This document shows, piece by piece, positions 29,821 through 56,279 of a DNA stretch of 64,000 nucleotides. The stretch spans positions 186,001 to 250,000 of the forward strand of contig NZ_JAMTCT010000006.1 of NCBI RefSeq assembly GCF_024171995.1. Reading direction: 5' to 3'. Below the pieces are notes generated by a model. It worked only from the letters and a program-made list of their open reading frames with translations, was not told the origin of the DNA and ran no database searches. The number at the start of each line of letters is the position of its first letter. The first letter of the stretch is position 1. Source of the DNA: Promicromonospora umidemergens (GTDB lineage: Bacteria > Actinomycetota > Actinomycetes > Actinomycetales > Cellulomonadaceae). Both the position numbers and the translations under genes were made by a program.

Positions 29821-30007
29821 GACATCCACAATGACAGATTTCATTGCCTCTGTGAACCCGTACGGTCCCCTCAAGTGCCACATGGTCACCGCGTGCCGTT
29901 TGTGGGGTCGTGGCAGAGGCGGCGATGCAAGGAAGGCGGCAGCGTGACGGTGAAGCCGCAGGCCTTCCGGCGCACCGTGGCGTGCTGCCTGGGTCCCGGG
30001 GACAACA

Positions 30008-30076
30008 ACGGCCCCCGACCGGCAAAGATGCTGGTCAGGGGCCGTTTCGTTCGGTCCGGAACGCGGTAGCGGTGGG
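30008..30076. repeat. 69-bp direct repeat A containing tRNA-Ser 3' end (att-like)
   Basis: This 69-bp stretch matches 31183-31251 with one mismatch. It contains a hairpin (stem built on CCCCCGACC / GGTC-GGGG around GGCAAAGATGCT) and ends in AACGCGGTAGCGGTGGG. That 17-bp word is also found at 36531-36547, where it is the last bases of the intact tRNA-Ser(CGA) gene plus flank. It therefore looks like an attachment-site relic of an integrative element. Confidence 0.8.
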
Positions 30077-30254
30077 CTCAGCACAGTGGTTTGGTCCACG
30101 TGACGTGCAGTTGGACCACAACCCCGTTGACCTGCATGTTTACCTGTCATCGCTTGTATCGCGTCGGCACTGGTCGGTCCGAGGCGGACCTAAAGTGATG
30201 TGTAAATCATGGCTCGTCGCGCGGGCGTGTACTCAACCATGCTCCTGCTTCGTG

Positions 30255-30441
30255 GTCCCTGTTCCTCCGTCATCCGTTGGCGCGGGGCACGTCTCGGACA
30301 TCGGTTCTGCCGGCAGTGCAACAGGTCCCGCTCATCGTGTGTCTGTGCGGTGGTGCTGGGTGTCGGCGGGACCTGTTGCACTGCTGGCGGGTTCGGTGTC
30401 AGGGTCCCGGTGAAGCCAATGGATGACGGAGGAACAGGGAC
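30255..30441. mobile_element. MITE-like element with nested inverted repeats
   Basis: The ends form a perfect 21-bp inverted repeat (30255-30275 and 30421-30441), extendable inward with one mismatch. Inside lies a second inverted repeat of 22 bp with one mismatch (30310-30331 and 30366-30387). No coding sequence fits the 187 bp. The structure suggests a non-autonomous transposable element or the fused ends of a deleted IS. I cannot name the family, and target-site duplications are not obvious. Confidence 0.55.
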
Positions 30442-30496
30442 ACCGCGGCTCCCCTGATCCCTCTTGATTCCCGCGGTGCCCGCCGGAGGCTCGGCG

Positions 30497-30919
30497 CTAC
30501 ACCTTGTCGGTGTCGGCCTTCGGTGAGCCGATACGTTCCCGAGCGATGAGGAACTCGAGGACGTAGGCCAAGGGTGCGAGGGCAGTTGCTGGCCAGGTGC
30601 CCAGCGTTGCACCGATGATTCCCTGTAGCACGAGCACTGCTCCCCCGGCGAGGCTCAGTGTGAGTAGGCGGGGTTGCAGGTTGGTCCCAAGGGCAGCTAG
30701 ACGGCGTGCCCAGCGTCGCTCGGTGATCCAGATGCTGAAGGCCGGGATACCTGGAAACGCGGAGAGTCCAGTGAAGACCACGATCCACGACCACGGCATG
30801 CCGGAGGCGGCGAAGAGCCAGACCGAGGCGACTGCGATGACGAACATGCCTTGCGGTTGCAGTCGCCTGTAGTAGGCGGCGATCTCCGCCGGGCTCTCGG
30901 TAGGGAACCTGAACTTCAC
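30497..30919 (-). CDS. small multi-pass membrane protein, unknown
   Basis: 140 residues with a charged start (KFRFPTESPAEIAAYYRRLQ), four hydrophobic segments (about residues 25-40, 44-62, 88-105 and 108-125) and a hydrophilic tail. There is a basic loop ITERRWARRL between helices 2 and 3. It lies alone between the MITE-like element and an integrase-tail-like fragment, inside the first island interval. I do not recognise it; cargo status is inferred from location. Confidence 0.55.
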   Translation of the reverse strand: MKFRFPTESPAEIAAYYRRLQPQGMFVIAVASVWLFAASGMPWSWIVVFTGLSAFPGIPAFSIWITERRWARRLAALGTNLQPRLLTLSLAGGAVLVLQGIIGATLGTWPATALAPLAYVLEFLIARERIGSPKADTDKV

Positions 30920-31031
30920 TGGATCCGCGCCATGTCTGTCATTAGCTCGCCCTCACGGCCTCGCGCTTCTGTCTGCCATAGCGGGAGGTTAGCGGATCGG
31001 GCCGGACGGCCCAGCGCGCCGACGGCGCGCC

Positions 31032-31163
31032 TTGACGGAGGCGACGACGTTGCGGCACTACGTCAAGCGGACGCACATCGCGCCCGACGTTCGGGTGGTC
31101 CTGGACCTGCTGGTCAACCAACCGGACAGCGACTCTCCCGAGCCGAATGTCATGGGAAAGTGA
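31032..31163 (+). pseudogene. possible C-terminal fragment of a tyrosine integrase
   Basis: An open stretch ends at TGA 31161-31163 and reads TLRHYVKRTHIAPDVRVVLD with a short polar tail. Tyrosine recombinases end with a catalytic Tyr in a similar 'T-x-x-H/R-Y' setting, and actinobacterial integrases often continue 'APDVR-x-VLD'. It stops 19 bp before att-like repeat B, the expected place for an integrase gene. The rest of the gene is missing. The assignment rests on a short match from memory. Confidence 0.35.
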
Positions 31164-31182
31164 TGGATCTGGGGGAACGACG

Positions 31183-31251
31183 ACGGCCCCCGACCGGCAA
31201 AGATGCTGGTCGGGGGCCGTTTCGTTCGGTCCGGAACGCGGTAGCGGTGGG
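31183..31251. repeat. 69-bp direct repeat B containing tRNA-Ser 3' end (att-like)
   Basis: Second copy of the unit at 30008-30076, one mismatch. In this copy the hairpin stem GGCCCCCGACC / GGTCGGGGGCC is perfect. The sequence to its right (about 31265-31320) is roughly 70 per cent alike to that right of copy A, which suggests two related elements used the same site. Confidence 0.8.
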
Positions 31252-31743
31252 GTTGGAGAGGGCACTTGTACGACGTTGCACGTGGAACCACACAACCCGG
31301 CTGACCTGTACAGATACCGCGATCGCACCCCGACCGGATTGGATGCGTTGGCACCGATGCGGACCGCAAACCGGAGCGAAAACGGAGACATCCTGGCGCG
31401 TTCGGGGTGGGGCGTCGTTCGGCTCCTTGCCACGTTCTTCGTCGGCGTGGTGCCGGGTCAAGGCTGGCGCTTGCGCCATCACGCAGTGACGCGGAGCGAC
31501 CTTGATGCGGTGCCTCGTCGATGAAGATCCTCCGAGAGCCGAGCGTCGTTCCAATGGTGAGACGACTCGCTCACCGCTCCCCCGGGCTGGTGTCCGACGT
31601 CGGATGGTCTAGCTCGCGGCATCGGGCGGGCGGTTGTTAGGCGGGTGCTCGACGCAGCCGGCTACGGGCGCCGGCCGCCGTGACCGTCCGCGAACCACGA
31701 AAGGCTGCATACGCGCGAAGCGGGATTGAATAGGATCCTTCAC
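31252..31743. other. gene-free stretch at left edge of second island interval
   Basis: No convincing coding sequence or RNA gene. The first 70 bases share similarity with the right flank of repeat A. The remainder has short reading frames without family signals. Confidence 0.5.
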
Positions 31744-32424
31744 ATGTCACCTGAGGCGATGCTCTCTCTGACGTCAGCCGCGCTCGGTGCGGGCGGCGCG
31801 ATCTTGGCCCAGGCGGTCGCGGAATTCTTCAGTGCTCGCCGTGACCGCCGACGGTTGGAGTGGGAGAAGACCCAAAGGGCGGAAGACGTGCGCCTCACTC
31901 AGACGGCGCGCTTCGAACAATCGAAACTTGACGCCTATCGTCGATATCTCAACCTCCTCTACCCAAGCATCTCCACGCTTCAGCACATGGTGGAGTACCC
32001 CGACGAGCCCGTCCCGAGCCGGCTAAGACGCTATGACCAGCCCTTCCGGGAAGAGGTCGAGTCACTTCGCTGGGAAGTGTCCCTACTCGGCGATCACCGT
32101 GTCACCTCGGCAGTGGAGGCGTCCCACGCATTGCTACTCGTAGCTCTGATTCAGTTCGTGTCGCCCGACGATTGGCCTCATGAAAAGCGTGTTCGCACTG
32201 CAAAGGACGCTCTCCGAGCATGGCAGCACACAAGCCATGTGATGCGTGCAGATTTGAAGGGCGATCAGGAGAGCCTTGCTGCGTTACACAAGCGTTGGCA
32301 GGACCAAGACAGGGACAAATTATCCGGCGACTTCAACGTCGCGGAGGCTCGTCTCGACGAACTTTATAGAAGATCGCGCACGGCGCAGCCACCGGTGGCC
32401 GAGCCGAAGGTTGCGGAGGAGTAG
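31744..32424 (+). CDS. membrane-anchored charged protein of unknown function
   Basis: 226 residues from ATG 31744 (AGGA 8 nt upstream; an upstream TTG is less likely). An N-terminal hydrophobic helix (TSAALGAGGAILAQAVAEFF) is followed by a long charged amphipathic region (RRDRRRLEWEKTQRAEDVRL) and mixed helices to the end. One TM plus coiled coil and no enzymatic motif is a design also seen in phage-defence accessory proteins. It is 331 bp upstream of a methyltransferase/endonuclease pair in the island and shares their lower GC content. Function unknown. Confidence 0.6.
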   Translation: MSPEAMLSLTSAALGAGGAILAQAVAEFFSARRDRRRLEWEKTQRAEDVRLTQTARFEQSKLDAYRRYLNLLYPSISTLQHMVEYPDEPVPSRLRRYDQPFREEVESLRWEVSLLGDHRVTSAVEASHALLLVALIQFVSPDDWPHEKRVRTAKDALRAWQHTSHVMRADLKGDQESLAALHKRWQDQDRDKLSGDFNVAEARLDELYRRSRTAQPPVAEPKVAEE

Positions 32425-32755
32425 CGCGGGGTGCGACGGGGTGCGCGCAGGGAGCGAAGCGACCGGAAGCGCGGGGGCCCTGTCGCGGGCCCCCGCGCGG
32501 CGCGGCGCGAGCCGCGCCCTTGATCTCATAGAGGCCAATTCGGCAACGGCCGCCATCGCGCAGGCACGCTTCCTCATCCGGCATACACGGAGCAGGAAGG
32601 TCGAGTTGTGCAGCCCGAGTCTCCGCCGCGCAGGTTGGCGATTGAGTGGCTGTCAGTGCTGGTCCGTAGGCTGGCTGCGAACGTGTGTCCGACTCGAGTT
32701 TTTGCTCGAACTCGGCTACCGTCAGTGCCAGCCCGGCAACATGAGCGGAGGACCC
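32425..32755 (+). other. intergenic leader of methyltransferase gene with strong terminator
   Basis: A perfect 12-bp hairpin (GCGCGGGGGCCC at 32469-32480, GGGCCCCCGCGC at 32487-32498, loop TGTCGC) terminates the upstream gene. The remaining 250 bp carry no family-supported reading frame and presumably contain the methyltransferase promoter. Confidence 0.6.
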
Positions 32756-33964
32756 GTGAGCAACCCAACACACAAGATTGCAGCGCTCTTTGCTGGCATA
32801 GGTGGGATCGAGCAAGGCTTTCATCGTGCGCTCGGCGACGACGTCGAGATGACGATGCTGTGCGAGTGGTGGGACCCCGCGAAGCGAGTTCTCTCCGCGC
32901 GGTTCCCGGGCGTAGATCTGCATCCGGATGTGCGTGAACTCACAGACCTTCCGAGCGAAACGACTCTCGTCACAGCTGGATTCCCCTGCACTGACCTGTC
33001 CCAGGCGGGCAGGACAGCTGGCATCGATGGTGAAGCGAGCGGCCTGGTCAAGCATCTGTTCGCGGTGCTCGATCACACGAAGGGCCGTAGCCACCTACCG
33101 ACGCTTCTCATCGAGAACGTTCCCAACATGCTCGCGCTGAACAAGGGACGCGCGATGACGTATCTCGTCCGCGAACTTGAGGCACTCGGCTACCGCTGGG
33201 CTTACCGCGTCGTGGACTCGCGATTCACAGGAGTACCGCAGCGTCGACGACGAGTGATCTTGCTTGCGTCCCGAGACATCGATCCGCGCACGGTTCTGTT
33301 CGCCGACGACGCCGGCCCTCGAGACGACGTCGATTACAAGCAAGATGCGTTCGGCTTCTTCTGGACCGAGGGCAGACGAGGTCTTGGCTGGGCGCAGGAC
33401 GCCGTTCCGACCTTGAAGGGCGGCTCCACGGTGGGCATCCCCTCACCTCCGGCAATCTGGGTTCCCGACGCTCCGATGGACCGGCGACTCATCAAGCCGC
33501 GGGTCGAGGATGCGGAAGCGATGCAGGGATTTGATCGCGGGTGGACCGACGTGGACTTCGGTACATCGAAGCGGAACGGCCCCCGGTGGAAGCTTGTCGG
33601 TAATGCCGTTACGGCGAATGTCTCGGAGTGGGTCGCGCGCCGTCTGGCGTCACCGGGTGACATCGTCGCGGACGACACGCTGTGGATGCACCAAGGCGGA
33701 TCTTGGCCAACTGCTGCCTGGGGCGAGAATGGCAAGGTCCACACGATGCTCGGCCTGTCGGAGTACCCCGAGCTGGAACCGTACTCGCATCTGCTGGAAG
33801 TGGTCGACGTCGAGCAGGCAGAGCCTGTGTCGCTTCGCGGGGCTGCCGGCTTCTGGAGTCGACTCCAGCAGGGGAATCTTGGTCGGCACCCCGGCTTCCG
33901 GGACGACGTTGCCGCGTATGTCGACATGATGCGCGGTGAGATCCCCCGGGTGATTGCGAGCTGA
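32756..33964 (+). CDS. C5 cytosine-specific DNA methyltransferase
   Basis: 402 residues from GTG 32756 (GGAGG 4 nt upstream; ATG 32741 is the alternative). Motif I is ALFAGIGGIEQGF, motif IV with the catalytic cysteine is GFPCTDLSQAG, motif VI is LIENVPNM, motif VIII is VPQRRRRVILLAS and motif X is KLVGNAVTANVSEW, in the normal m5C order. The target recognition region lies between VIII and X. It methylates cytosine in an unknown site and should protect against the endonuclease encoded 41 bp downstream. GC content is clearly below that of the flanking chromosome. Confidence 0.93.
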   Translation: MSNPTHKIAALFAGIGGIEQGFHRALGDDVEMTMLCEWWDPAKRVLSARFPGVDLHPDVRELTDLPSETTLVTAGFPCTDLSQAGRTAGIDGEASGLVKHLFAVLDHTKGRSHLPTLLIENVPNMLALNKGRAMTYLVRELEALGYRWAYRVVDSRFTGVPQRRRRVILLASRDIDPRTVLFADDAGPRDDVDYKQDAFGFFWTEGRRGLGWAQDAVPTLKGGSTVGIPSPPAIWVPDAPMDRRLIKPRVEDAEAMQGFDRGWTDVDFGTSKRNGPRWKLVGNAVTANVSEWVARRLASPGDIVADDTLWMHQGGSWPTAAWGENGKVHTMLGLSEYPELEPYSHLLEVVDVEQAEPVSLRGAAGFWSRLQQGNLGRHPGFRDDVAAYVDMMRGEIPRVIAS

Positions 33965-34005
33965 TCTCCCAGGCGACGGGGGTCGGAACCGGTACGGTGG
34001 CCTGC

Positions 34006-34863
34006 GTGTTCGGACCCGAGATCCTCGCCCGCTTCCTGTCCATCCCATCGCCGAAGGAAGACAAGTACGGGCAGCACTGGCAGTACAATTCGCGCTCTGA
34101 CCGTCACTCCAAGGTGGGCTGCTGGGGAATCGCTTTCGACATGCTCGCGCAGTCAGGGCTGATGCAACAGCACGCTACCGCCGGGAAGATTGTTCTCGGC
34201 GTGAACCACCCAATGCGCGATTTCAAGCACAACCGCGAGAAGGACCTCGATCTTGTCATCGCGCGGCCAGACCAGTCGCGTAGCGGAACAAAGGGTACGT
34301 TCCGTGGTCTGGTCACGTCGCTCGGAATCCCACTCTCGGCCGCGGAAGACGCACTTCTCCAGCAATTGCCGGACATTTCCATCGCGCCTGTCGGTGCCGT
34401 GCTCGTGTCGCTGGAAGCGAAAGCTGCAATGACCGCTCACGTCAAAGCCAAGCCCCGCCTCTACGATGAGCTCAACTCTTCGCACTCCGCAATTCACGGT
34501 GCGTCTAGCCAGGCACTCGCGATCGGCTATGTGCAGGTCAACCACTCGCCAGAGTTCTATTCTTCGGTGATCAACAGTCCTCTGCTCAAGCACGGACTCC
34601 CTACGGAGATCACGAAGCACAACCAGCCTAAGGACACGCTGGAGATCATCGACAAGGTTTCACAACTGCCTCGCCGTGTGGGCAAGTCCGGGGACGGGTT
34701 CGACGCCATCGGCATCACTGTGCTGGACATGATTAACGACTTCAAGACGCCCGTGAAGATCGTAACTGGATCTCCCGCACCGCAGCCAGGTTCCAACTTC
34801 CACTACGACGGCATGATCGTCCGGATGGCCAACGAATACGACGCCACTTTCGCTCACATCTGA
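34006..34863 (+). CDS. probable type II restriction endonuclease partnered with the C5 methyltransferase
   Basis: 285 residues from GTG 34006, chosen because TACGGT lies 7 nt upstream; GTG 33997 is also possible. A PD-(D/E)xK-like set is visible: acidic residues D80/D82 in REKDLDLVIARP, then E137-A-K139 in AVLVSLEAKAAMTAH after a hydrophobic strand. I know no named restriction enzyme with this sequence. Position directly after a C5 methyltransferase, matching GC content and the active-site-like motif support a restriction role. Its own promoter would allow delayed expression after methylation. Confidence 0.65.
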   Translation: MFGPEILARFLSIPSPKEDKYGQHWQYNSRSDRHSKVGCWGIAFDMLAQSGLMQQHATAGKIVLGVNHPMRDFKHNREKDLDLVIARPDQSRSGTKGTFRGLVTSLGIPLSAAEDALLQQLPDISIAPVGAVLVSLEAKAAMTAHVKAKPRLYDELNSSHSAIHGASSQALAIGYVQVNHSPEFYSSVINSPLLKHGLPTEITKHNQPKDTLEIIDKVSQLPRRVGKSGDGFDAIGITVLDMINDFKTPVKIVTGSPAPQPGSNFHYDGMIVRMANEYDATFAHI

Positions 34864-35174
34864 ATCACCCGATTTGGCACGTCGCCGTTGAGACAGAACT
34901 CGGCCGGAAAGAGCTGTAGCGAGCAACTCGGGCTGGGAGATGTCCGGGGGTGCGATCGAAGAACAAACGGTCGGCTGCGGGTGCGAACTACAACTCGAAC
35001 GCAGCGCGACGGCACGAACCGAGTTCGCCGTGAGGCAATAGAGATCATGGACGCCACTCAGCCTGAGGACGACCTTGAGAACGGCGATATGCCCCTTCGC
35101 CGAGAAGTAGCGCGCGGTCTGGCGGTTGTCGCGACTCGCCGCATGGAGCACTGGGGAGACGGCGCGGACGCCCC
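34864..35174. other. intergenic region after the restriction gene
   Basis: A plus-strand reading of about 100 codons (from 34888) is open but has no recognisable domain, no ribosome site and an odd Arg/Thr-rich composition. I do not call it a gene. No terminator or repeat stands out. Confidence 0.4.
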
Positions 35175-35679
35175 TCAGGAAGGCACTGCGTAGACGGCGG
35201 CGGGTTCGGTGAGGCCATCGCCGTATTGGTGGGTGAAGGTGGCGATCTGCACGGCTCCGAGGCGTTCGTAGAGCCGGATCGCGGCCCGGTCCTTGAGCAT
35301 GACGTCGAACGCAATCGCAAGACCTTGGCCCTGCGCGAAGTCCACCGCGGCTTCCATCAAGAGCCGGCCGGCCCCGCTGCCCCGGTGGTCGGGGTCCACG
35401 AACAGCCGGACGGGAACAGCCAAGAGGCCGGTGTCGCCGCCGCTGTGCTCCTGCCACGCTCAAGCCGCGTCATCCTCGGGTGTGGCACGTGTGAGGATGA
35501 TCTGCCCGACGGGCTGGTCGTCTTCAACGGCCGTCCGGCTCTCAAGCTCGTTGGGGTGGCGTAGCCAGCCTTCGGGGTCGGTCACGCCTTCGACAACCGT
35601 CCTGGGCGTGCACGCGGACCAGCACGGCGGCGAGGTCGGTCAGGTCTTCGCCCCGGCGGCGGCGGATCGTGAGGGTCAT
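35175..35679 (-). pseudogene. decayed GNAT acetyltransferase gene
   Basis: Read from ATG 35679 it encodes TLTIRRRRGEDLTDLAAVLV then RVHAQDG. About 5 nt are missing, shifting the frame. The protein continues in another frame as VEGVTDPEGWLRHPNELE to EDDAA, meets a TGA near 35470 where the intact paralogue at 27490 has Leu, and goes on to LFVDPDHRGSGAGRLLM and the normal end. Two disabling lesions make this a pseudogene. Its start overlaps the GntR stop. Confidence 0.85.
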
Positions 35680-36415
35680 CAGTAGTCCACGGGCATGTCG
35701 TAGTCGAGTGCTGAGTAGTCGGCGCGCATGTAGAAGTTCGTGACTTCGAACGGCTGCTTCTCGGCGGTCATGCCGGTGTGCCACAGATCGATCATGGGCA
35801 CGCCCGGCGGTAGGTCGAGGCCTTCGGCCTCTTCCCGCGTGGCCGGCTGCGCGGTGATCTCTTCGCGGACGTTGGCGATGGTGTAGCCGAGGTCTTCGAG
35901 TCGGCCGTAGAGACGGCGCTTGCCGAGGTTTTCGGCCTTCGCAAGGGCCGTGCCCTTGGCGATGGACCACGGGATGAACGTGATGCCGACCTGCATGGGT
36001 ACCTCGTCGGCGAAGTACCAGTTCTCGCGGCGTACGACGTCGGTCCCGGGTTCGATGCCGAGCCGTTCCGCGACGTCGACGTCGGCAGGGACTCGTTCTG
36101 CGCTGCGGACCTCGACCCGCGGAGTCTTGCCTGCGCCCGGGCCTCGGCGCCGAACGGGCCGTGTCTGGTGACCGCTCGCATCGGGGTCGTGTAACGCAGC
36201 CGGCCAAAGCGCATCCAGCAGGGACGCTCGCGGATGAAGTAACCCCCGGCCGTGCTCGGACCGGACAAGCCCTTCTTGGATGAGTTCCTGGATGGCAGCC
36301 CGCACTGTGTTCCGGGCGCCGTGATAGGTCGGGGCGAGCACTCGCTCGGATGGCAACTTGTCGCCGGCGCGGAACTCGCCGAAGTGGATCGCGTCCCGCA
36401 GTGATCCTCTGCGAC
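35679..36415 (-). pseudogene. decayed GntR/UTRA regulator gene
   Basis: The wing-helix text (LRDAIHFGEFRAGDKLPSER, NTVRAAIQELIQEGLVRSEH) and the UTRA domain down to MRADYSALDY and the DMPVDY end are clear. A one-base gain near 36243 moves GYFIRERP into another frame until a one-base loss near 36142 restores it. Two extra bases near 36405 cut off the N-terminus, and no start codon with a ribosome site remains. It would have regulated the adjoining acetyltransferase. Confidence 0.8.
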
Positions 36416-45459: not shown

Positions 45460-48400
45460 TCACGACTCGCCGGCGGTCGGGTCGCTGCACACCTCGAACC
45501 ACGGCCACCGCGGCGGCCGTGCGTCGGTGGCGACGGAGGCGGCAGTGGTCGCGGCCGGCGTCGGCTCGCACACGTTGCCGAAGCACGCCTTGCCCGGGAC
45601 GACGAACTGGCGCTCCACCGTATGTTCGCGGCCTTCCAGCTGACGGGTGAGCCGCACGGTGACGTTGCCCTCGCGGCTGATCGCGGTCTCGCGCGTGAGC
45701 TCGAGCGTCGTGGCCTGTCCCGCGACAACCTTCTGCGGGGACCCGATCTCACTGCTGCTCTCGCGGAGCAGCACGCCCATCCAGTCGCGATCGGTCCCGT
45801 TGCTCACCGTCGCCGTGAGATGCACGCGCTGGTCTGTGCACTGTGCCGCGGCGCTGACCGACACCGCCTCGGGCCAGGTGAGCTCGGCGCAGGACTCGAA
45901 CGAGACGGGCATCGTCGCCAGCGGCTCGTTCGCCGCCATCAGGGTGGCGGTCTCGGTACCCCAGACGACCGGGAACTCGATGGACGTGATCTCTCCGGCG
46001 GGCACGGTCCTGGTCACGTCGCCCACGTGGAACCGGACGGGCAGGGTTGAGCCGGTGTTGTCGGCGGTGAAGGCGAACGTCCGCACCGAGTGGTCCTGCT
46101 CGACGTCGAACTCGCAGACTCCTGCGGTCACCGGCGCATCGCCGACCGCCGGCGCGATCGTCGCCCCGCCATGGTGTGCCGTCGGGTTGGTCGTTGGCAC
46201 GACCGGGCCGGCTGGCTGGTCACCGTCGGTGTCCAACCCGTCCCGCGAGAGACGGAAGGTGACGTCGCCCTCGGCCAGGTGCATCCGGTCCGTGTTCACA
46301 GAGAGGCTCAGGGTGCTACCCGGTGCCACCGGAAGGCCCGGGGACTCCATGGTGGTGTCACCCACGGGGACGACCATGACAGCGGTCAGCGACTCATCCG
46401 ACCTGTTGGTCACCGTGCCCTTGACCGCCACGGTGCCGCCCCAGTTATAGGTCTCCGCACTCGTCTCGGTGGACCACGACGGCGAGTAGCAGTCCGCCCC
46501 GTTGTGGTCACCCGCTGGCACCGGCGTCGTGTACGTCTTCCCGTCCACCATCGTGGCGAGCACGAAGGCCGCCTGGCCCGCCGGTACCCGCATACCGTCG
46601 GGCACGGTGAGCTGGGTGGCCGCACCAGGGGCCACGTCCCTGCCCGAGGAAGCGCTGCTGCCGGCGGCCTTGAGCGCGACGCGCACCGTGCGCTCCGTCG
46701 TGTTGGTGTATGTGCCGGTCACGACTGCGTTGGCGGTGCTGGCTCCGCCTTCGGTGACGCAGGACGCGACGACGTCACCGACGCCCTTACCGGCGTTCGC
46801 CCAGGCGGACGTCACGGCCAGCGTGGCCGAGACGGAGCGCGCGTTGCCCTGGGGGACGACCGGACGGAGGTTCACAGCGCCAAGCGTCGTGGGCTCCGCC
46901 GACGACGCGGCAGCCGCCGTCGTGATGTTCAGCGTGGTCCCCAGGGTGACGCCTGGCTCCAGCGCCGTGGCCGTCCCGGCGAGCGGCGCGCAGAGCCACC
47001 CGTTCGGCGGTGCCCCGGACGTGCACGTCAGCTCGGGCTGCGCCTTGGTCGGGCTGACGCCGTCGGGCAGCGTCACCTCGACCGCCCAGCCGACGGGCAC
47101 CGCACGGTCGCCCGTGCTGGAGACCCGGACCGGGAGCGCGGCGATGCCGGGGCTCGCGAGCGAGACGTCAGCGCTCGCCGCGGTGAGCTCGGGACCGAAC
47201 GGCGCCACCGTGCGGCCCTGCAGGTCGATCGCGCGGTGCTCTATACCGTCGGCCCAGACCTCGGCTCCGACGGGGTAGTCGCCACCCGAGCTGGCCTGCA
47301 CGGGCACCTCGACGTGGTGGTCCTGCCCCGGAGCGACCTCGCCGAGCGAGCAGAGCAGCACGTTCGCCTGCTCCGTCGGTGTGCAGGCGGCCGGGCCGTC
47401 CTCAGGGATCTGACCCACGGTGGCAGGCGTGCTGGGCGACGAGCCCGGCGTGGCCTTCAGGTCGCCGTCGGACGCTGCGCCGGCCTCGGTGCTGCCGTCG
47501 GCGGCGGACCCGGACGCGCTCGCGCTGTCGGTGCCCGAGCTGTCACCGGTCCCGGTGGCAGCGGCGTCCGTGTCCGCGGTCGGCTCCACCGAGCCCGCCA
47601 GCCGGCTGCCGACCCCCGTGCCGAACGGCCCGTCCGGCCGGGTCACGGTGAGCCCGCTGGGAAGCGTGATCTGCAGCTGCGTACCGGTTGTCGCGGTCTC
47701 GCCGGTGTTGCTGATGGTGAGCGCCAGCTTCTGGGGCTGCCGCGGGACCAGCGGCTTCGACGCGTCCGTGTACTCGACGGCGAGGTACGAGATGCTCGTG
47801 CTCTCGCCGGGCTCGATGTCGGTCGGCAGGACAGGGTTCCCGTTGATGCCCTCGGCGCCCGGCAGCTCGCGACCGTCCGTCGTCGTGGTCGTCTGGTCCG
47901 CGAGCACCGGCTCCGCGTCGGCCGGTGCGCCGATCTGCAGCGCCGCGACCATGGTGACGGCGGCGACGGCCAGCGCGCCGGCCGCGACGCTGCCGCCCGC
48001 GGCGGCCGCAGCGGCCGAGGCGACAGCACCGGCGGTCGCGGACACGGCACTGGCGGTGGCCGAGACAGCTGACGACACGGCGCCGGAGAGCGTGCTGGTC
48101 GAGGCTGCGCCCACCGTCGCGGTGGCCGTTGGCGCGCCGCTGACCGCCGCACCCGCCCCGGCCTTCGCCGCGACGAACATGCCGCCGATCGGCGCACCGG
48201 CCCCGACGAGGGCGAGGCCACCCGCGCCGAGCACCAGCGGGGCGATGACGGTCTTCATGCCGTGCGCGACGTCGTGCAGCTCCAGCACGAGGGCGCTGCA
48301 GGTGCCGCAGGTCGCGAGGTGGTCGTCGATCTTCGCGGTCTCCCGCTTGGACAGGCTGTCGCGCACGTACCCGCCGAGCAGCGGGTTCACCGTGCGGCAG

Positions 48401-48990
48401 GTGTCCGACGGCGCATGTGTCAGGTGCTGCTGCAGGTATCCGGCGCGCAGTGCCTCCTTGGCCCGATAGAGCAGGGCGGAGACACCGTTGGGGCTGAGGC
48501 CCAGCACGGGCGCCACCTGTGCCGGCTTCAGATCGTCGACCAGGACGTACCAGAGCACCTCGCGCCAGCGCTCGGGCAGGTCGAAGTAGGCCCTGGAGAC
48601 CACGCTGCGCTCGAAGCCGGCGAGCGCCGGATCTTCCTCCGACGCGACACGTCCGAGCACCGACTCGATCTCGTCGTCCGTGCTGGGGCGGGTGCGCGCC
48701 GCGCCGCGGGACACGTCGAACGACCGGTGGCGCACCACTGTGTACAGGTACGGACGGAACCCGGTGTCGGGCCCGGCGCCACGACGGAGCATCTCGAACA
48801 GCTTGCTGAAGGCGTCCGCGACGACGTCCTCGGCGTCCGCGGGCGATACGTAGTGCCGCGCGAGCGCACGCGCTGCCTCGGCGTGCCGCTCGTAGAGCAT
48901 GCCAAAAGCGTCGCGGTCACCTGACCTGACCTGCAAGATCAGTTCCGCGTCGCTCGGCGTTTCACCGGTGCTGCTCTCGGCTTGCTTCAC
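45460..48990 (-). CDS. ECF sigma factor fused to zinc-finger, transmembrane and giant extracellular regions
   Basis: 1176 residues from GTG 48990. Residues 25-95 are sigma region 2 (GMLYERHAEAARALAR to FRPYLYTVVRHRSFDV) and 133-187 region 4 (DLPERWREVLWYVLVDDLKP, VSALLYRAKEAL). C198, H224, C228 and C231 form a C-x25-H-x3-C-x2-C zinc-finger anti-sigma motif. Two hydrophobic segments (about 246-265 and 335-353) bracket an Ala/Ser/Thr-rich stretch. The remaining 800 residues are Thr/Ser/Val-rich beta domains with DUF11-like text (KLALTISNTGETATTGTQLQ), presumably outside the cell. No separate anti-sigma gene is adjacent. A single polypeptide could thus sense the exterior and regulate transcription after release. 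TATAGT (complement of 49025-49030) is a likely -10. Confidence 0.88.
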   Translation of the reverse strand: MKQAESSTGETPSDAELILQVRSGDRDAFGMLYERHAEAARALARHYVSPADAEDVVADAFSKLFEMLRRGAGPDTGFRPYLYTVVRHRSFDVSRGAARTRPSTDDEIESVLGRVASEEDPALAGFERSVVSRAYFDLPERWREVLWYVLVDDLKPAQVAPVLGLSPNGVSALLYRAKEALRAGYLQQHLTHAPSDTCRTVNPLLGGYVRDSLSKRETAKIDDHLATCGTCSALVLELHDVAHGMKTVIAPLVLGAGGLALVGAGAPIGGMFVAAKAGAGAAVSGAPTATATVGAASTSTLSGAVSSAVSATASAVSATAGAVASAAAAAAGGSVAAGALAVAAVTMVAALQIGAPADAEPVLADQTTTTTDGRELPGAEGINGNPVLPTDIEPGESTSISYLAVEYTDASKPLVPRQPQKLALTISNTGETATTGTQLQITLPSGLTVTRPDGPFGTGVGSRLAGSVEPTADTDAAATGTGDSSGTDSASASGSAADGSTEAGAASDGDLKATPGSSPSTPATVGQIPEDGPAACTPTEQANVLLCSLGEVAPGQDHHVEVPVQASSGGDYPVGAEVWADGIEHRAIDLQGRTVAPFGPELTAASADVSLASPGIAALPVRVSSTGDRAVPVGWAVEVTLPDGVSPTKAQPELTCTSGAPPNGWLCAPLAGTATALEPGVTLGTTLNITTAAAASSAEPTTLGAVNLRPVVPQGNARSVSATLAVTSAWANAGKGVGDVVASCVTEGGASTANAVVTGTYTNTTERTVRVALKAAGSSASSGRDVAPGAATQLTVPDGMRVPAGQAAFVLATMVDGKTYTTPVPAGDHNGADCYSPSWSTETSAETYNWGGTVAVKGTVTNRSDESLTAVMVVPVGDTTMESPGLPVAPGSTLSLSVNTDRMHLAEGDVTFRLSRDGLDTDGDQPAGPVVPTTNPTAHHGGATIAPAVGDAPVTAGVCEFDVEQDHSVRTFAFTADNTGSTLPVRFHVGDVTRTVPAGEITSIEFPVVWGTETATLMAANEPLATMPVSFESCAELTWPEAVSVSAAAQCTDQRVHLTATVSNGTDRDWMGVLLRESSSEIGSPQKVVAGQATTLELTRETAISREGNVTVRLTRQLEGREHTVERQFVVPGKACFGNVCEPTPAATTAASVATDARPPRWPWFEVCSDPTAGES

Positions 48991-49118
48991 GTCTACCCAG
49001 ACTCTCGGCCGTGTCCTGCCAAAGACTATAGAGCCACACCGCGATTCTAGGGGCTGAAAAAAACATTTCCTGGATGACCGGCGGGTGAAGTGCGGTACAC
49101 CACGCTTGAAGGTGCGTC

Positions 49119-49916
49119 ATGATTGATCCTCGTGAGGGTTCCTTCATCATGAGCGAGTCACAGCAGGAGGCGCGGGTGCGTGTGCATGACCTGCGTGAGC
49201 GGTGGCGCGCTACCAGCTTGGCGTCGGTCTGGATCCGACCGAACGACTGGGAGCACCCCGCCGCGGAAGCGCTTGCCGAGGCACTGGCCGAGGGCCGTGG
49301 CGTGATCGCGCCCGCAGAACGGCTGGGCGCAGCACGGGCCGCCGTGGGAGCCGGGATCACCGAGGCCCTGGACGACGTCGCCTGTCTCTACGCCGCGTTC
49401 GGCCGCCCTACCGACGTGGGCGCGCTGCGCTCCGCGGCGATCGGCTGGGTCGGCGAGCGCGAGCGCATGCCGTACCAGGCAGCCACGCACGACCCGTCGA
49501 CCGGACTACCGACGGGCGAGTACCTGGGCGAGCGGCTGCGCGAGACCTACGGCACGGCGCAGCGCAGCGGTACCACCGCGGGCGCCTCCCACTGCCTGCT
49601 CGTGCTCGATGTCGGCCTGGACAGTCTCGACACGTGGCAACGGCTCGCGCGCTCCGCTGCGATCGGCCGCACCCTGCACCAGGTCTTCGGTGAAGGCCAC
49701 CCGATGGCCGCTGTCGACGACGGCACCTTCGTGGTGCTGTGCGAGCGCGGCCCGACGACCGCAGAGCTGGGCCAGTCGCTGCGCCGCGTCGTGGAGCGCA
49801 ACGCCGAGGTGCTCGGCCTCATCACGGAGGTGCGCCGGCCGACCCGGGTCTGGGTCGAGCGCCTGCCCGGTACGCACGACGACGCGCTGTTGCTGCTCGA
49901 CCACCTGGCTCGCTGA
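49119..49916 (+). CDS. degenerate GGDEF-like domain protein
   Basis: 265 residues, with ATG 49119 or 49149 as start. The C-terminal half keeps the frame of a diguanylate cyclase: ATHDPSTGLPTGEYLGERL corresponds to the 'D-x-LTGL-x-N/R' entry, LLVLDVGLDSLD to the metal strand and MAAVDDGTFVVLCER to the position of GG(D/E)EF. The signature itself is lost (VDDGTF), so cyclase activity is unlikely and a nucleotide-binding or structural role is possible. The N-terminal half is helical without a known domain. It diverges from the sigma-fusion gene 128 bp away. Confidence 0.6.
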   Translation: MIDPREGSFIMSESQQEARVRVHDLRERWRATSLASVWIRPNDWEHPAAEALAEALAEGRGVIAPAERLGAARAAVGAGITEALDDVACLYAAFGRPTDVGALRSAAIGWVGERERMPYQAATHDPSTGLPTGEYLGERLRETYGTAQRSGTTAGASHCLLVLDVGLDSLDTWQRLARSAAIGRTLHQVFGEGHPMAAVDDGTFVVLCERGPTTAELGQSLRRVVERNAEVLGLITEVRRPTRVWVERLPGTHDDALLLLDHLAR

Positions 49917-52838: not shown

Positions 52839-54703
52839 TTGCGCTCGTCCTCGTCGTCCACGATCTCGGCGTCGACGACGTCCTCGTCGGGAGCCGCCTG
52901 CGCGTTCGCCGTCTGCGGGCCACCCTCGGCGCCCTGCGCCGCAGGCTGCTGCTCGGCGGAGTACAGAGCCTCGCCGATCTTCTGCGAGGACGCACCGAGC
53001 TTCTCGTACGAGGTCTTCACCGCCTCGGAGTCCTCGCCCTCGAGCGCGGACTTGACCGCGGCGATGTCCGCCTCGACCTCGGTGACGACCTCGGCCGGAA
53101 GCTTGTCGCGGTTGTCCGCAATCTGCTTGTCCATGGAGTACGCGAAGGTCTCGGCCTGGTTGCGGGTGTCCGCGTCCGCGCGACGCTCCTTGTCCTCCTC
53201 GGCGTGGGTCTCGGCGTCCTTGACCATGCGGTCGATGTCCTCCTTGGGGAGGGCCGAACCGCCGGTGATCTTCATCGACTGCTCCATGCCCGTGCCGCGG
53301 TCCTTGGCGGACACGTGCACGATGCCGTTCGCGTCGATGTCGAACGTGACCTCGACCTGCGGCACGCCGCGCGGGGCCGGTGCGATCCCGGTGAGCTCGA
53401 ACACACCCAGCGGCTTGTTGTCGCGCGTGAACTCACGCTCGCCCTGGAACACCTGGATCGCCACGGACGGCTGGTTGTCGTCCGCCGTGGAGAAGACCTC
53501 GCTGCGCTTGGTCGGGATGGCCGTGTTGCGCTCGATGAGCTTGGTCATCACGCCACCCTTGGTCTCGATACCGAGGGACAGCGGGGTGACGTCGATCAGC
53601 AGGACGTCCTTGCGGTCGCCGGTGATGACACCGGCCTGCAGGGCCGCGCCGACGGCGACGACCTCGTCCGGGTTCACACCCTTGTTCGGCTCGCGGCCGC
53701 CCGTGAGCTCCTTGATGACCTCGGGCACTGCGGGCATGCGGGTGGAGCCACCCACGAGCACGACGTGGTCGATGTCGGAGACGGAGATGCCCGCGTCGCG
53801 GATCACCGCGTGGAACGGAGCCTTGGTGCGGTCGATGAGGTCCTGCGTCATCTGCTGGAACTGAGCGCGCGTGAGCTTCTCGTCCAGGTGGATGGGGCCG
53901 TTCTCGCTCATCGAGAGGTACTGCATCGAGATGTTGGTGCTCGTCGAGGACGAGAGCTCCTTCTTGGCCTGCTCGGACGCCTCGCGGAGCCGCTGCAGCG
54001 CGATCTTGTCCTTCGACAGGTCGACGCCGGAGGAGTTCTTCACCTGCTTGATGAGGTACTCCACGACGCGCTGGTCCCAGTCGTCGCCACCGAGGCGGTT
54101 GTCACCGGAGGTGGCGCGCACCTGGATGGTCGAGAAGTTGTCCTCGTCCTTGCCCACCTCGAGCAGGGAGACGTCGAACGTACCGCCACCGAGGTCGAAG
54201 ACGAGGATGAGCTCGTCCTCCTTGCCCTTGTCGAGACCGTAGGCGAGCGCTGCCGCCGTCGGCTCGTTGACGATGCGCTTGACGTCGAGGCCGGCGATCT
54301 GGCCGGCGTCCTTCGTGGCCTGGCGCTCGGCGTCGTTGAAGTACGCCGGGACCGTGATCACGGCCTCCGTGACGGGCTCGCCGAGGTACTCCTCGGCGTC
54401 GCGCTTGAGCTTGCCGAGGATGCGTGCCGAGATCTCCTGCGGCGTGTACTTCTTGTCGTCGATGTCCTGGGACCAGTCGGTGCCCATGTGGCGCTTGACC
54501 GACGAGATGGTGCGGTCGACGTTGGTGACCGCCTGACGCTTGGCGACCTCACCCACGAGGACCTCGCCGGTCTTGGAGAACGCGACCACCGACGGGGTGG
54601 TCCGCGAGCCCTCCGCGTTGGCGATGACGGTGGGCTCCCCACCCTCGAGGACGGTCACCACCGAGTTCGTGGTGCCGAGGTCGATACCTACTGAGCGTGC
54701 CAT
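52835..54703 (-). CDS. dnaK: chaperone protein DnaK (Hsp70)
   Basis: 622 residues with the start [16 protein letters not shown], phosphate-2 motif [30 protein letters not shown], the linker [17 protein letters not shown] and a C-terminal lid ending in an acidic tail. It is first in the dnaK-grpE-dnaJ-hspR cluster. Two HAIR boxes upstream, one overlapping the -10, predict repression by HspR until misfolded proteins titrate DnaK. GGAAGG precedes the ATG. Confidence 0.98.
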
Positions 54704-54724
54704 GTTGCTGCCTTCCTACGACAG

Positions 54725-54745
54725 GTTGAGTCTGCTGCACTCAAC
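54725..54745 (-). promoter_or_regulatory. HAIR element 1 over the dnaK promoter
   Basis: GTTGAGT-N7-ACTCAAC, one base per arm from the CTTGAGT/ACTCAAG consensus. On the minus strand a -35-like TTGCAT (complement of 54766-54771) and -10-like TTAAGT (complement of 54744-54749), 16 bp apart, place this box at the transcription start. Confidence 0.88.
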
Positions 54746-54786
54746 TTAAGCCAGTGACCGCGAGGATGCAAGCCCGGCCCCCCAGA

Positions 54787-54807
54787 GTTGAGTCCACTTC
54801 ACTCAAC
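54787..54807 (-). promoter_or_regulatory. HAIR element 2 upstream of the dnaK promoter
   Basis: A second GTTGAGT-N7-ACTCAAC with different spacer bases, centred 62 bp upstream of the first. The near-integer number of helical turns (about six) would let HspR dimers sit on one face. Confidence 0.88.
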
Positions 54808-54913
54808 CTCCACGGCCCGCGGATGGTTCCCGCCGCGAACAGGCGGCCGGCGCCGGACTATTAGCACCGGACGGGTACCCGCTGGCCAGGGACAGAGGTG
54901 TCAGGATTTGTCC

Positions 54914-55600
54914 GTGGGATCGGTCATTACGCTGTCCGTCAACGGAGTGGACCTCGACTGGGGGAAGAACCGCAGCCGGGAGAACCACTACTGGCTGTTT
55001 CCGCCGGGAAGTCTGACCGAGATTGAGTACGTTTTCGTGGATGGCTACGTGGAGCGCAAGCCGGGGTTTCAGACCACTCTGGAAGAGGCTCGCTTCCGGC
55101 TACGGCATCTCGGCTACTCGCAACATGAGGCGGAAGCAAAGTTCAGCGAGGCGGTCACCCGTTGGAACAGGACGTCCGACCTGCGGTTGTCCTTCGAAGG
55201 CTTCCGGAGTGCACTGACCAGCACCGACTTGGCGGCCCCTTCGCCCTCGGCCGCGCGCCGAACAGCCGACGACAACCTCTGGACCCGCATCTCCAGACTG
55301 TTTGCACCGGGTGGCCTCGGGGAAAGCATGACCGACAACTTCATCCGCACCCTGGACATCGGGATCGCACTTCGAGTGCTTGCCGATCGTGACGAGAACC
55401 TGCCGCTGCCGCTGCGATGGCACCACCAGGATCTGATCGACGGTGGATGGGCGTCACTCGAGGATGTGACCGACATAGACCGGCGCGACACGATCATCAA
55501 CCACACGATGCTGGTCGGTCGGCTGCAGGACCACGTCGGAGTGCACACCGTCAGCGGGTTCGATGCCTGGCTCGTGACATCTGAGAAGGAGCCAACGTGA
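54914..55600 (+). CDS. HEPN/Toprim-N-like domain protein
   Basis: 228 residues from GTG 54914. The first 100 residues (GSVITLSVNGVDLDWGKNRS, LFPPGSLTEIEYVFVDGYVE, LEEARFRLRHLGYSQHEAEA, RLSFEGFRSAL) resemble the short domain that precedes HEPN or Toprim modules in conflict-system proteins, which typically begins 'MGS-x-I-x-L-x-x-x-x-x-D/E-WGKN'. The rest is helical with no recognisable nuclease motif. The downstream 94-residue gene overlaps its stop (GTGA). Defence-related function is inferred from the domain only. Confidence 0.55.
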   Translation: MGSVITLSVNGVDLDWGKNRSRENHYWLFPPGSLTEIEYVFVDGYVERKPGFQTTLEEARFRLRHLGYSQHEAEAKFSEAVTRWNRTSDLRLSFEGFRSALTSTDLAAPSPSAARRTADDNLWTRISRLFAPGGLGESMTDNFIRTLDIGIALRVLADRDENLPLPLRWHHQDLIDGGWASLEDVTDIDRRDTIINHTMLVGRLQDHVGVHTVSGFDAWLVTSEKEPT

Positions 55601-55881
55601 ACAAGCAGCAGAAGCTCAGGAACACCGCAGAAGGACTGCTCGCGGGCCTCACCGCCGTCGGCTTCAAGGGTCCCTGGCGGTGGGCCCACCACGAGTGGGA
55701 GGGTGCGTTCTACCGGGCGTGGAGCGACTGGCCGCCCGCGAGAGATACAGAGGTCTTTCGCGCGTTCCAAGTCGGTGGTTCCGCTGACGGTCGGACGTCG
55801 CAAGCCCGCGACATCCTCTTCACAGTGAAAAGCACGTCACCGTTCGACGGCTACGACCGTGGTCCGCTCAATAGCGCCTGA
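55597..55881 (+). CDS. small unknown protein coupled to the HEPN/Toprim-N-like gene
   Basis: 94 residues from GTG 55597, overlapping the preceding stop by 4 bp. It starts with a basic helix (NKQQKLRNTAEGLLAGLTAV) and continues with a Trp-rich stretch (GPWRWAHHEWEGAFYRAWSD). There is no TM helix and no known domain. Tight coupling suggests it partners the protein before it, in a toxin-antitoxin or regulator-effector style; no direct evidence. Confidence 0.55.
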   Translation: MNKQQKLRNTAEGLLAGLTAVGFKGPWRWAHHEWEGAFYRAWSDWPPARDTEVFRAFQVGGSADGRTSQARDILFTVKSTSPFDGYDRGPLNSA

Positions 55882-56279
55882 CAGCCGACTGCTTGTCCCA
55901 ACCCGCCGCGGCCTGATGCCTCACCGACGCGGCGATGGCACACCAGGCCGCCACCTGCATGACCAGCTATCCGCCTTGACGAGCTGCTCGGGCGAAGGGG
56001 GACAGCGTCCCGCGCCTCCACGACGCGCCGATGCTCAGGTATACGGGCGGGATCCGACGAGGGCACGAATCGGCAGGAACTCCCGTCCCTGGAGGCGCCC
56101 AGGCAGTACTGCATGCGCCGTAGCGCGGGACCGGGCGCCTGATGGTTATCAGGTATCGCAGAACTATCGCAGTTACCTAGCATAGAGGATTGCAGAACCT
56201 CGCATACTGGCACCTGAGAGCGTCGATCTGTATACCGTCAACCAGCTGGCATGTCCGACTGATGGCGTACGCTTCAGGC
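55882..56279. other. intergenic region with A/T-rich repeated words before the initiator-like gene
   Basis: No gene is supported for 400 bp. From 56150 to 56220 the GC content drops and short repeats occur (TATCGCAGA and TATCGCAG in tandem at 56153-56170, and GCAGAACCTCGCAT), which could be operator or iteron-like sites. The leaderless promoter TACGCT of the next gene is at 56268-56273. Confidence 0.45.

Follow-up and report, generated by a model that had tools for sequence, protein, structure and literature searches.

A sigma factor, a zinc motif and a giant, probably extracellular part in one frame

In the 64,000-nucleotide stretch of the Promicromonospora umidemergens genome analysed here (contig NZ_JAMTCT010000006.1, positions 186,001 to 250,000; hereafter the window), the minus strand carries a gene whose product joins a predicted sigma factor, a zinc anti-sigma (ZAS) motif, two hydrophobic segments and a long beta-rich C-terminal part. 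The frame begins with GTG, encodes 1176 amino acids and contains no internal stop; placement of the start codon is tentative, because the frame stays open further upstream (1218 codons in all). The gene and its parts, all on the minus strand, are as follows.

45460..48990 (-), whole gene, a sigma/anti-sigma/membrane/ectodomain protein of 1176 residues in one piece (frame, Pfam, alignment)
48694..48897 (-), sigma-70 region 2, residues 32-99 (Pfam PF04542 Sigma70_r2, E = 5e-9)
48448..48579 (-), sigma-70 region 4, residues 138-181 (Pfam PF08281 Sigma70_r4_2, E = 3.3e-6)
48298..48399 (-), ZAS motif, residues 198-231 (Pfam PF13490 zf-HC2, E = 1.8e-6; alignment)
48193..48249 (-), hydrophobic segment 1, residues 248-266, between K246 and K276, possibly a partial span (hydropathy, alignment)
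47989..48192 (-), low-complexity loop rich in Ala, Ser and Gly, residues 267-334 (hydropathy, alignment)
47932..47988 (-), hydrophobic segment 2, residues 335-353, a proposed anchor with its N-terminal end inside and its C-terminal end outside (hydropathy)
47791..47931 (-), acidic, fast-evolving stalk, residues 354-400, a candidate protease-accessible stretch (comparison of substitution rates)
45583..47790 (-), beta-rich ectodomain, residues 401-1136, modelled with low confidence at 452-533 (alignment, AlphaFold2 model)

The initial annotation of this DNA had placed the sigma regions, the zinc motif, two hydrophobic segments and the beta region in a single open frame, an arrangement that is borne out here and is also conserved in relatives. 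The G+C content at third codon positions is 0.85-0.95 in each 100-codon block of the gene, and this steadiness gives no sign of a frameshift. A stop or shift, which the annotation had named beforehand as decisive against its claim, is absent from the window gene and from 11 relatives. An interruption between the zinc motif and the beta region is ruled out by the frame, the codon composition and the relatives, and a chance open frame by the same evidence together with the Pfam domains and the ratios of nonsynonymous to synonymous substitution rates (dN/dS). A literature search found no paper on the 1176-residue Promicromonospora protein itself.

The sigma and anti-sigma module

The Sigma70_r2, Sigma70_r4_2 and zf-HC2 matches all lie above the curated Pfam cut-offs, and NCBIfam TIGR02937 scores 68.6 bits (cut-off 42.9). 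The protein has both region 2 and region 4, by which extracytoplasmic function (ECF) sigma factors are recognized, and the H-x3-C-x2-C signature with a Cys ligand upstream by which ZAS domains are recognized. Its zinc ligands C198, H224, C228 and C231 are invariant in all 12 rows of an alignment of the window protein with 11 full-length relatives, and the Pfam positions agree with the residue numbers first given for the sigma regions and the zinc motif. The join between sigma region 4 and the ZAS motif (residues 184-198) is itself well conserved, with 11 of 15 positions invariant in the 12 rows.

Among the other sigma frames of the same genome, none of the 13 that were read (from 37 matches, picked mostly by frame length) has an H-x2-4-C-x2-C motif. 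A separate locus, L039 (contig C14 of this genome, 44500-54500), holds four consecutive sigma frames, two of which (651 and 609 amino acids, open) lack the zinc motif but have a long C-terminal part and a single hydrophobic segment. This is another fused-sigma layout within the same genome.

Conservation and selection

A scan of genome contigs returned 17 loci with a relative: nine full-length Promicromonospora loci, one P. citrea locus ended by a contig edge (L020), two Antribacter loci and five distant loci, whose short frames encode plain sigma factors. The gene is conserved in every Promicromonospora locus returned, with 60-69% identity in the best segment for the full-length loci, two of which are strains of one species. 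Eleven of the 12 close loci (nine Promicromonospora and two Antribacter) have an uninterrupted frame across the ectodomain, the remaining one being L020.

We compared the window gene with five of the nine full-length Promicromonospora loci by the NG86 method. The dN/dS values are 0.02-0.14 for sigma regions 2 and 4, 0.10-0.31 for the ZAS motif, 0.14-0.20 for hydrophobic segment 1, 0.15-0.32 for the loop with segment 2, 0.36-0.98 for the linker after segment 2 and 0.47-0.67 for the ectodomain. Against the Antribacter protein L021 the values, which are rough owing to high divergence, are 0.34 and 0.26 for sigma regions 2 and 4, 0.15 for ZAS, 0.43 for segment 1, 0.83 for the loop with segment 2, 1.92 for the linker and 0.64-0.88 for the ectodomain. 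The gene is real and under purifying selection, and the pattern indicates a strongly conserved cytoplasmic module with a faster-evolving outer part whose plan is kept.

A shared module with varied outer parts

A tblastn search of a plasmid collection with residues 1-270 matched 20 records, the best being a Nonomuraea record at 50% identity; three Klebsiella records among the 20 hold plain rpoE genes. Seven records were read (Nonomuraea L028, Arthrobacter/Paenarthrobacter L029-L031 and Streptomyces L032-L034), and by pattern and hydropathy each of the seven proteins continues from a zinc motif through two hydrophobic segments into an additional C-terminal part; Pfam reports zf-HC2 in only four of them (E up to 0.01). 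The outer parts of these plasmid relatives hold a RicinB lectin domain in three cases, a weak Big_6 match in one and no named Pfam family in three. The genes of L030, L031 and L033 lie near genes for a SpaA-type pilin, a class C sortase or a sortase-dependent surface protein, a hint at a possible role of such sigma factors in controlling surface structures.

Matches to the sigma-ZAS part are frequent in the wider lineage. In the order sample, a 249-residue query found one in 35 of 119 genomes (E up to 1e-30, own genome counted); of the 47 matches, 45 belong to open frames that measure at least 520 and at most 1638 residues from stop to stop. In the class sample, 65 of 197 genomes gave a match (E up to 1e-20, own genome counted), the weaker matches including plain sigma factors in short frames. 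We selected twenty stretches from each search, read the complete proteins, and surveyed these 40 with Pfam together with the window protein and L021 (E up to 0.001). The 42 proteins contain Sigma70_r2 in 40 cases, Sigma70_r4_2 in 31 and zf-HC2 in 39, along with DUF11 in five, NPCBM (which we take to be the domain named smart00776) in four, immunoglobulin (Ig) families in three, ricin lectin in three, DUF3344 in two and CARDB in two. Such NPCBM, ricin lectin, Ig, DUF11, CARDB and DUF3344 domains are known mainly from secreted or surface proteins. One protein of another family (L133) has three I-set type Ig stretches and a ricin lectin domain following the sigma-ZAS module, and a same-family relative of about 1619 residues (L081) contains a very long TDPT tandem repeat within its C-terminal part.

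The window-type ectodomain has a narrower spread. A profile of it gives strong matches to L077-L080, four proteins from a second genus of the same family, and a partial, weaker one to L081; the remaining 35 of the 40 order and class proteins give no match at E up to 0.01. Within the plasmid collection, a tblastn search with the ectodomain found nothing at E up to 1e-3, and the profile has only a weak link among the seven plasmid relatives, to L028 (9.6 bits). In a tree of 59 sigma-ZAS modules, rooted only at the midpoint, the window protein nests with Promicromonospora, then with Antribacter (100/100) and then with L077-L080 (98/94), and the NPCBM proteins L121-L124 form a separate clade (100/99) with the window protein outside it.

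On balance, we favour a reading in which the sigma-ZAS-membrane unit is a common chassis in Actinomycetes that carries exchanged, unrelated ectodomains, which would make these proteins a broad class of receptor-like sigma factors that each consist of a single protein. The exchanged types would include Cys-rich beta arrays of about 820-1270 residues, I-set-like Ig arrays with ricin lectin, NPCBM, DUF11 and DUF3344, and the window protein would represent the giant Cys-rich form without a recognizable sugar-binding domain.

The probable C-terminal ectodomain

Ten cysteines (536, 547, 656, 667, 744, 834, 959, 1034, 1051 and 1136) are invariant in all 12 aligned rows. They may pair in sequence order, and the ectodomain is probably stabilized by disulfides. 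Beyond residue 231 of the window protein, no Pfam family is reported at E up to 1. Searched with an ectodomain profile, the sequences of solved structures gave no match up to E 1.

An AlphaFold2 model built from the 12 sequences has a mean predicted local distance difference test score (pLDDT) of 63.9. The sigma part is helical, and modelled strands span residues 403 to 1131. The best-modelled region of the ectodomain is residues 841-1130, where 10-residue blocks score 78-95 with one exception at 59; residues 227-399 and 452-533 fall below 50. The modelled strands, taken with matches of a few relatives to DUF11, CARDB and Big families, suggest that the ectodomain is a chain of Ig-like sandwiches. 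Several features of the model weigh against the receptor proposal set out below: its predicted template-modelling score is 0.34, ectodomain blocks 731-840 score 44-72, and the ZAS motif is poorly modelled (34-52 in blocks 181-250), as are residues 97-131 (below 50).

Probable placement of the C-terminal part outside the cell

The initial annotation had listed two hydrophobic segments and about 800 extracellular residues. Both segments are present, with Kyte-Doolittle peaks of 1.98 (residues 248-266) and 2.14 (residues 335-353), and 823 residues lie downstream of the second. An outside location is less firm than was stated, because two true spans would return the C terminus to the cytoplasm. 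A single crossing by segment 2, with its N-terminal side inside and its C-terminal side outside, would place the ectodomain as proposed, and three membrane spans would fit an outside C-terminal part equally well.

We examined charge and cysteine patterns in 59 members (12 of the Promicromonospora/Antribacter group, seven from the plasmid collection and 40 from the order and class genomes), which are interrelated, so that the counts are not independent. The segments were located by a simple hydropathy scan and are doubtful in some rows, for example L029, L135 and L136. The number of cysteines beyond segment 2 is even in 57 of the 59 members (zero in six of these) and odd in L029 and L031. Before segment 2 the number is odd in 50 of 59, which the three zinc-ligand cysteines would favour. 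The first 60 residues past segment 2 are net acidic in 50 members. The loop between the segments, which varies from 52 to 131 residues across the 12 rows of the Promicromonospora/Antribacter group, is net positive in 40 members, weakly suggesting that it lies inside and that segment 1 perhaps makes no full span. The Nonomuraea protein L028, with six Lys or Arg and no Asp or Glu between the segments, likewise suggests a loop inside and a crossing by segment 2 alone.

These charge patterns have exceptions that count against the proposed placement. The first 60 residues past segment 2 are neutral in three members and basic in six; the loop is neutral in 12 and negative in seven. The Promicromonospora loop holds a single Lys, and among eight other same-family or f9-type proteins with a fully neutral or negative loop, five have no charge in it at all. 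With so few charges, the argument from the loop is thin. Taken together, the ten invariant cysteines, the even cysteine counts, the acidic stretch after segment 2 and the domain types in relatives make it most likely that the C-terminal part of about 800 residues is outside the cell. The cysteine and charge patterns favour the extracellular location claimed in the initial annotation over the cytoplasmic C terminus that it had named as the opposing result.

Comparison with known fused sigma factors

The principle of such a fusion, which the initial annotation had regarded as known, proves to be better established than it had held, as related groups have been described and long frames with a fused sigma-ZAS module turn up often among the sampled genomes of the order and the class. 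In the sections of PMC8999054 and PMC5826349 on these groups, ECF48, ECF52 and ECF53 carry a zinc-finger domain and one to two membrane helices fused to the C-terminal end of the sigma factor, and proteolytic activation is expected for them. The ECF52 protein SCO4117 of Streptomyces coelicolor is described there as having a proline-rich stretch and a carbohydrate-binding module, and PMC5826349 reports that it bears smart00776. In PMC10766802, glycosyl hydrolase and carbohydrate-binding domains are predicted for some ECF52/53 proteins and described as not yet validated.

Likeness to ECF52 and ECF53 was judged here by such descriptions rather than by published ECF group profiles, with L121-L124 (f37/g75) standing in for ECF52 and SCO4117 considered by its published description only. 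The window protein shares with ECF52 sigma regions 2 and 4, a zinc finger, a membrane region (by hydropathy only) and a long C-terminal part. L121-L124 have the same plan, three that were tested individually end in NPCBM, and the window sigma-ZAS query finds all four at E 3.2e-42 to 1.3e-33. In contrast, the window protein lacks NPCBM by Pfam, has 823 residues past segment 2 compared with 240-257 in L121-L124, and falls outside their clade on a branch with proteins of its own order. We do not assign it to ECF52 proper, because NPCBM is absent and the protein lies outside the NPCBM clade.

ECF53 proteins are characterized in the relevant section of PMC8999054 by a zinc-finger fusion (likely ZAS), one to two membrane helices and extensions of up to 400 residues. 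The window protein has the ZAS fusion and, by hydropathy only, one to two helices, whereas its extension after sigma region 4 is about 990 residues, well beyond the 400 given in that section. The plasmid relatives L028-L034 have the same layout and are found by the sigma-ZAS profile at E 1.1e-79 to 1.6e-40, but their C-terminal parts are shorter. A further parallel, by description, is IutY of Pseudomonas putida (ECF243), which also keeps a sigma factor and a membrane anti-sigma in one chain, is activated by regulated proteolysis according to the account in PMC8999054, and differs in serving Gram-negative iron-siderophore signalling. That account treats IutY as the only experimentally characterized case of this activation, cutting being a proposed model for ECF52 (PMC8999054, PMC5826349). 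The one-piece design of sigma factor, ZAS, membrane region and outer part is already known; the window protein is unusual in the size of its ectodomain, which is Cys-rich.

A proposed membrane receptor that would hold its own sigma factor inactive

We consider it likely that the protein is a one-piece transmembrane receptor that holds its own sigma factor inactive until a signal, probably through proteolysis, sets the sigma factor free. By homology, the N-terminal ECF sigma factor would be kept inactive by the ZAS motif fused directly behind region 4. The cell membrane would anchor the chain, its sigma factor inside and its beta-rich, perhaps Ig-like ectodomain outside, where the latter may sense a cue from the envelope or from beyond the cell. 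If the protein works as IutY does and as the ECF52 model proposes, the cue could alter or expose the acidic stalk; protease cuts, first in the stalk and later within the membrane, could liberate a cytoplasmic sigma-ZAS fragment, and the sigma factor would become able to bind RNA polymerase once the ZAS motif is also lost or opened. Because inhibitor and sigma factor are in one chain, release would need a cut between sigma region 4 and the ZAS motif or a change of shape; simple destruction of the fused anti-sigma would be insufficient, as degradation from the membrane side would reach the sigma factor. The genome has two genes of the M50 protease family, a generic precondition for this route, and the presence of M50 proteases in all 14 control genomes speaks against giving them weight.

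A less probable arrangement is signalling in place, in which the sigma factor is never cut off: the signal would cross the membrane, the ZAS motif would let go and the tethered sigma factor would work where it is. The conserved join at residues 184-198 offers no obvious loose stretch for cleavage, and segment 1 is well conserved in the five Promicromonospora comparisons, as if for signalling. However, IutY acts through proteolysis and the ECF52 model is one of cutting in the passages cited above (PMC8999054, PMC5826349), and a tethered sigma factor would presumably need RNA polymerase to be held at the membrane.

The ZAS motif could also be a redox switch, oxidation of the cytoplasmic domain causing loss of zinc and freeing the sigma factor inside, with the ectodomain mainly an anchor or cell-wall binder. 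The invariant zinc ligands accord with such a switch, as does the oxidation responsiveness reported for some ZAS proteins in the section of PMC8999054 on them. We hold this to be improbable: the five Promicromonospora comparisons show purifying selection on the ectodomain, and in some relatives lectin or NPCBM domains replace it, both of which point to sensing on the outside. Least probable of all is an intracellular scaffold, in which two true spans of similar hydrophobic strength (1.98 and 2.14) would return the C-terminal 800 residues to the cytoplasm, against which stand the ten invariant cysteines, the even cysteine counts in 57 of 59 members, the acidic stretch in 50 of 59, the lectin and NPCBM domains of some relatives, the long TDPT repeat of L081 and the loop charges of L028.

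In one-piece sigma receptors, sensor, inhibitor and transcription factor are on one chain, so that the wiring from signal to gene can be tested in one construct. This example with a large ectodomain, along with relatives whose ectodomains differ, offers a ready-made series in which to study the nature of the signal and the way a fused inhibitor releases its sigma factor.

Upstream element and neighbouring genes

One further feature lies upstream of the start codon.

49024..49053 (-), conserved element CCCCT-N18-TATAGTC, promoter role proposed (upstream alignment, genome scan)

The 8-mer CTATAGTC is invariant in all 13 aligned upstream regions (window counted), and the element is a putative promoter. 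A genome search for CTATAGTC with the CCCCT box has a single match, which is the gene's own site. The element was dropped as a regulon marker for that reason, and the lone match, which leaves a regulon invisible, counts against the receptor proposal.

Four neighbouring genes were checked in the 12 close loci. The divergent upstream gene and the gene beyond it are present in all 12, and the downstream genes for uracil phosphoribosyltransferase and a deaminase in 11, L020 ending before them. The divergent neighbour (window 49149-49916, plus strand) is 90-94% identical in ten Promicromonospora loci and 69-71% in the two Antribacter loci; it has no Pfam match at E up to 0.01 and looks GGDEF-like by eye only. 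The second gene upstream is HspR-like, also by eye only. Elsewhere in the window, the G+C content is 0.63-0.65 in the 2-kb blocks of 30001-36000 and 54001-56000, compared with 0.66-0.74 in most other blocks.

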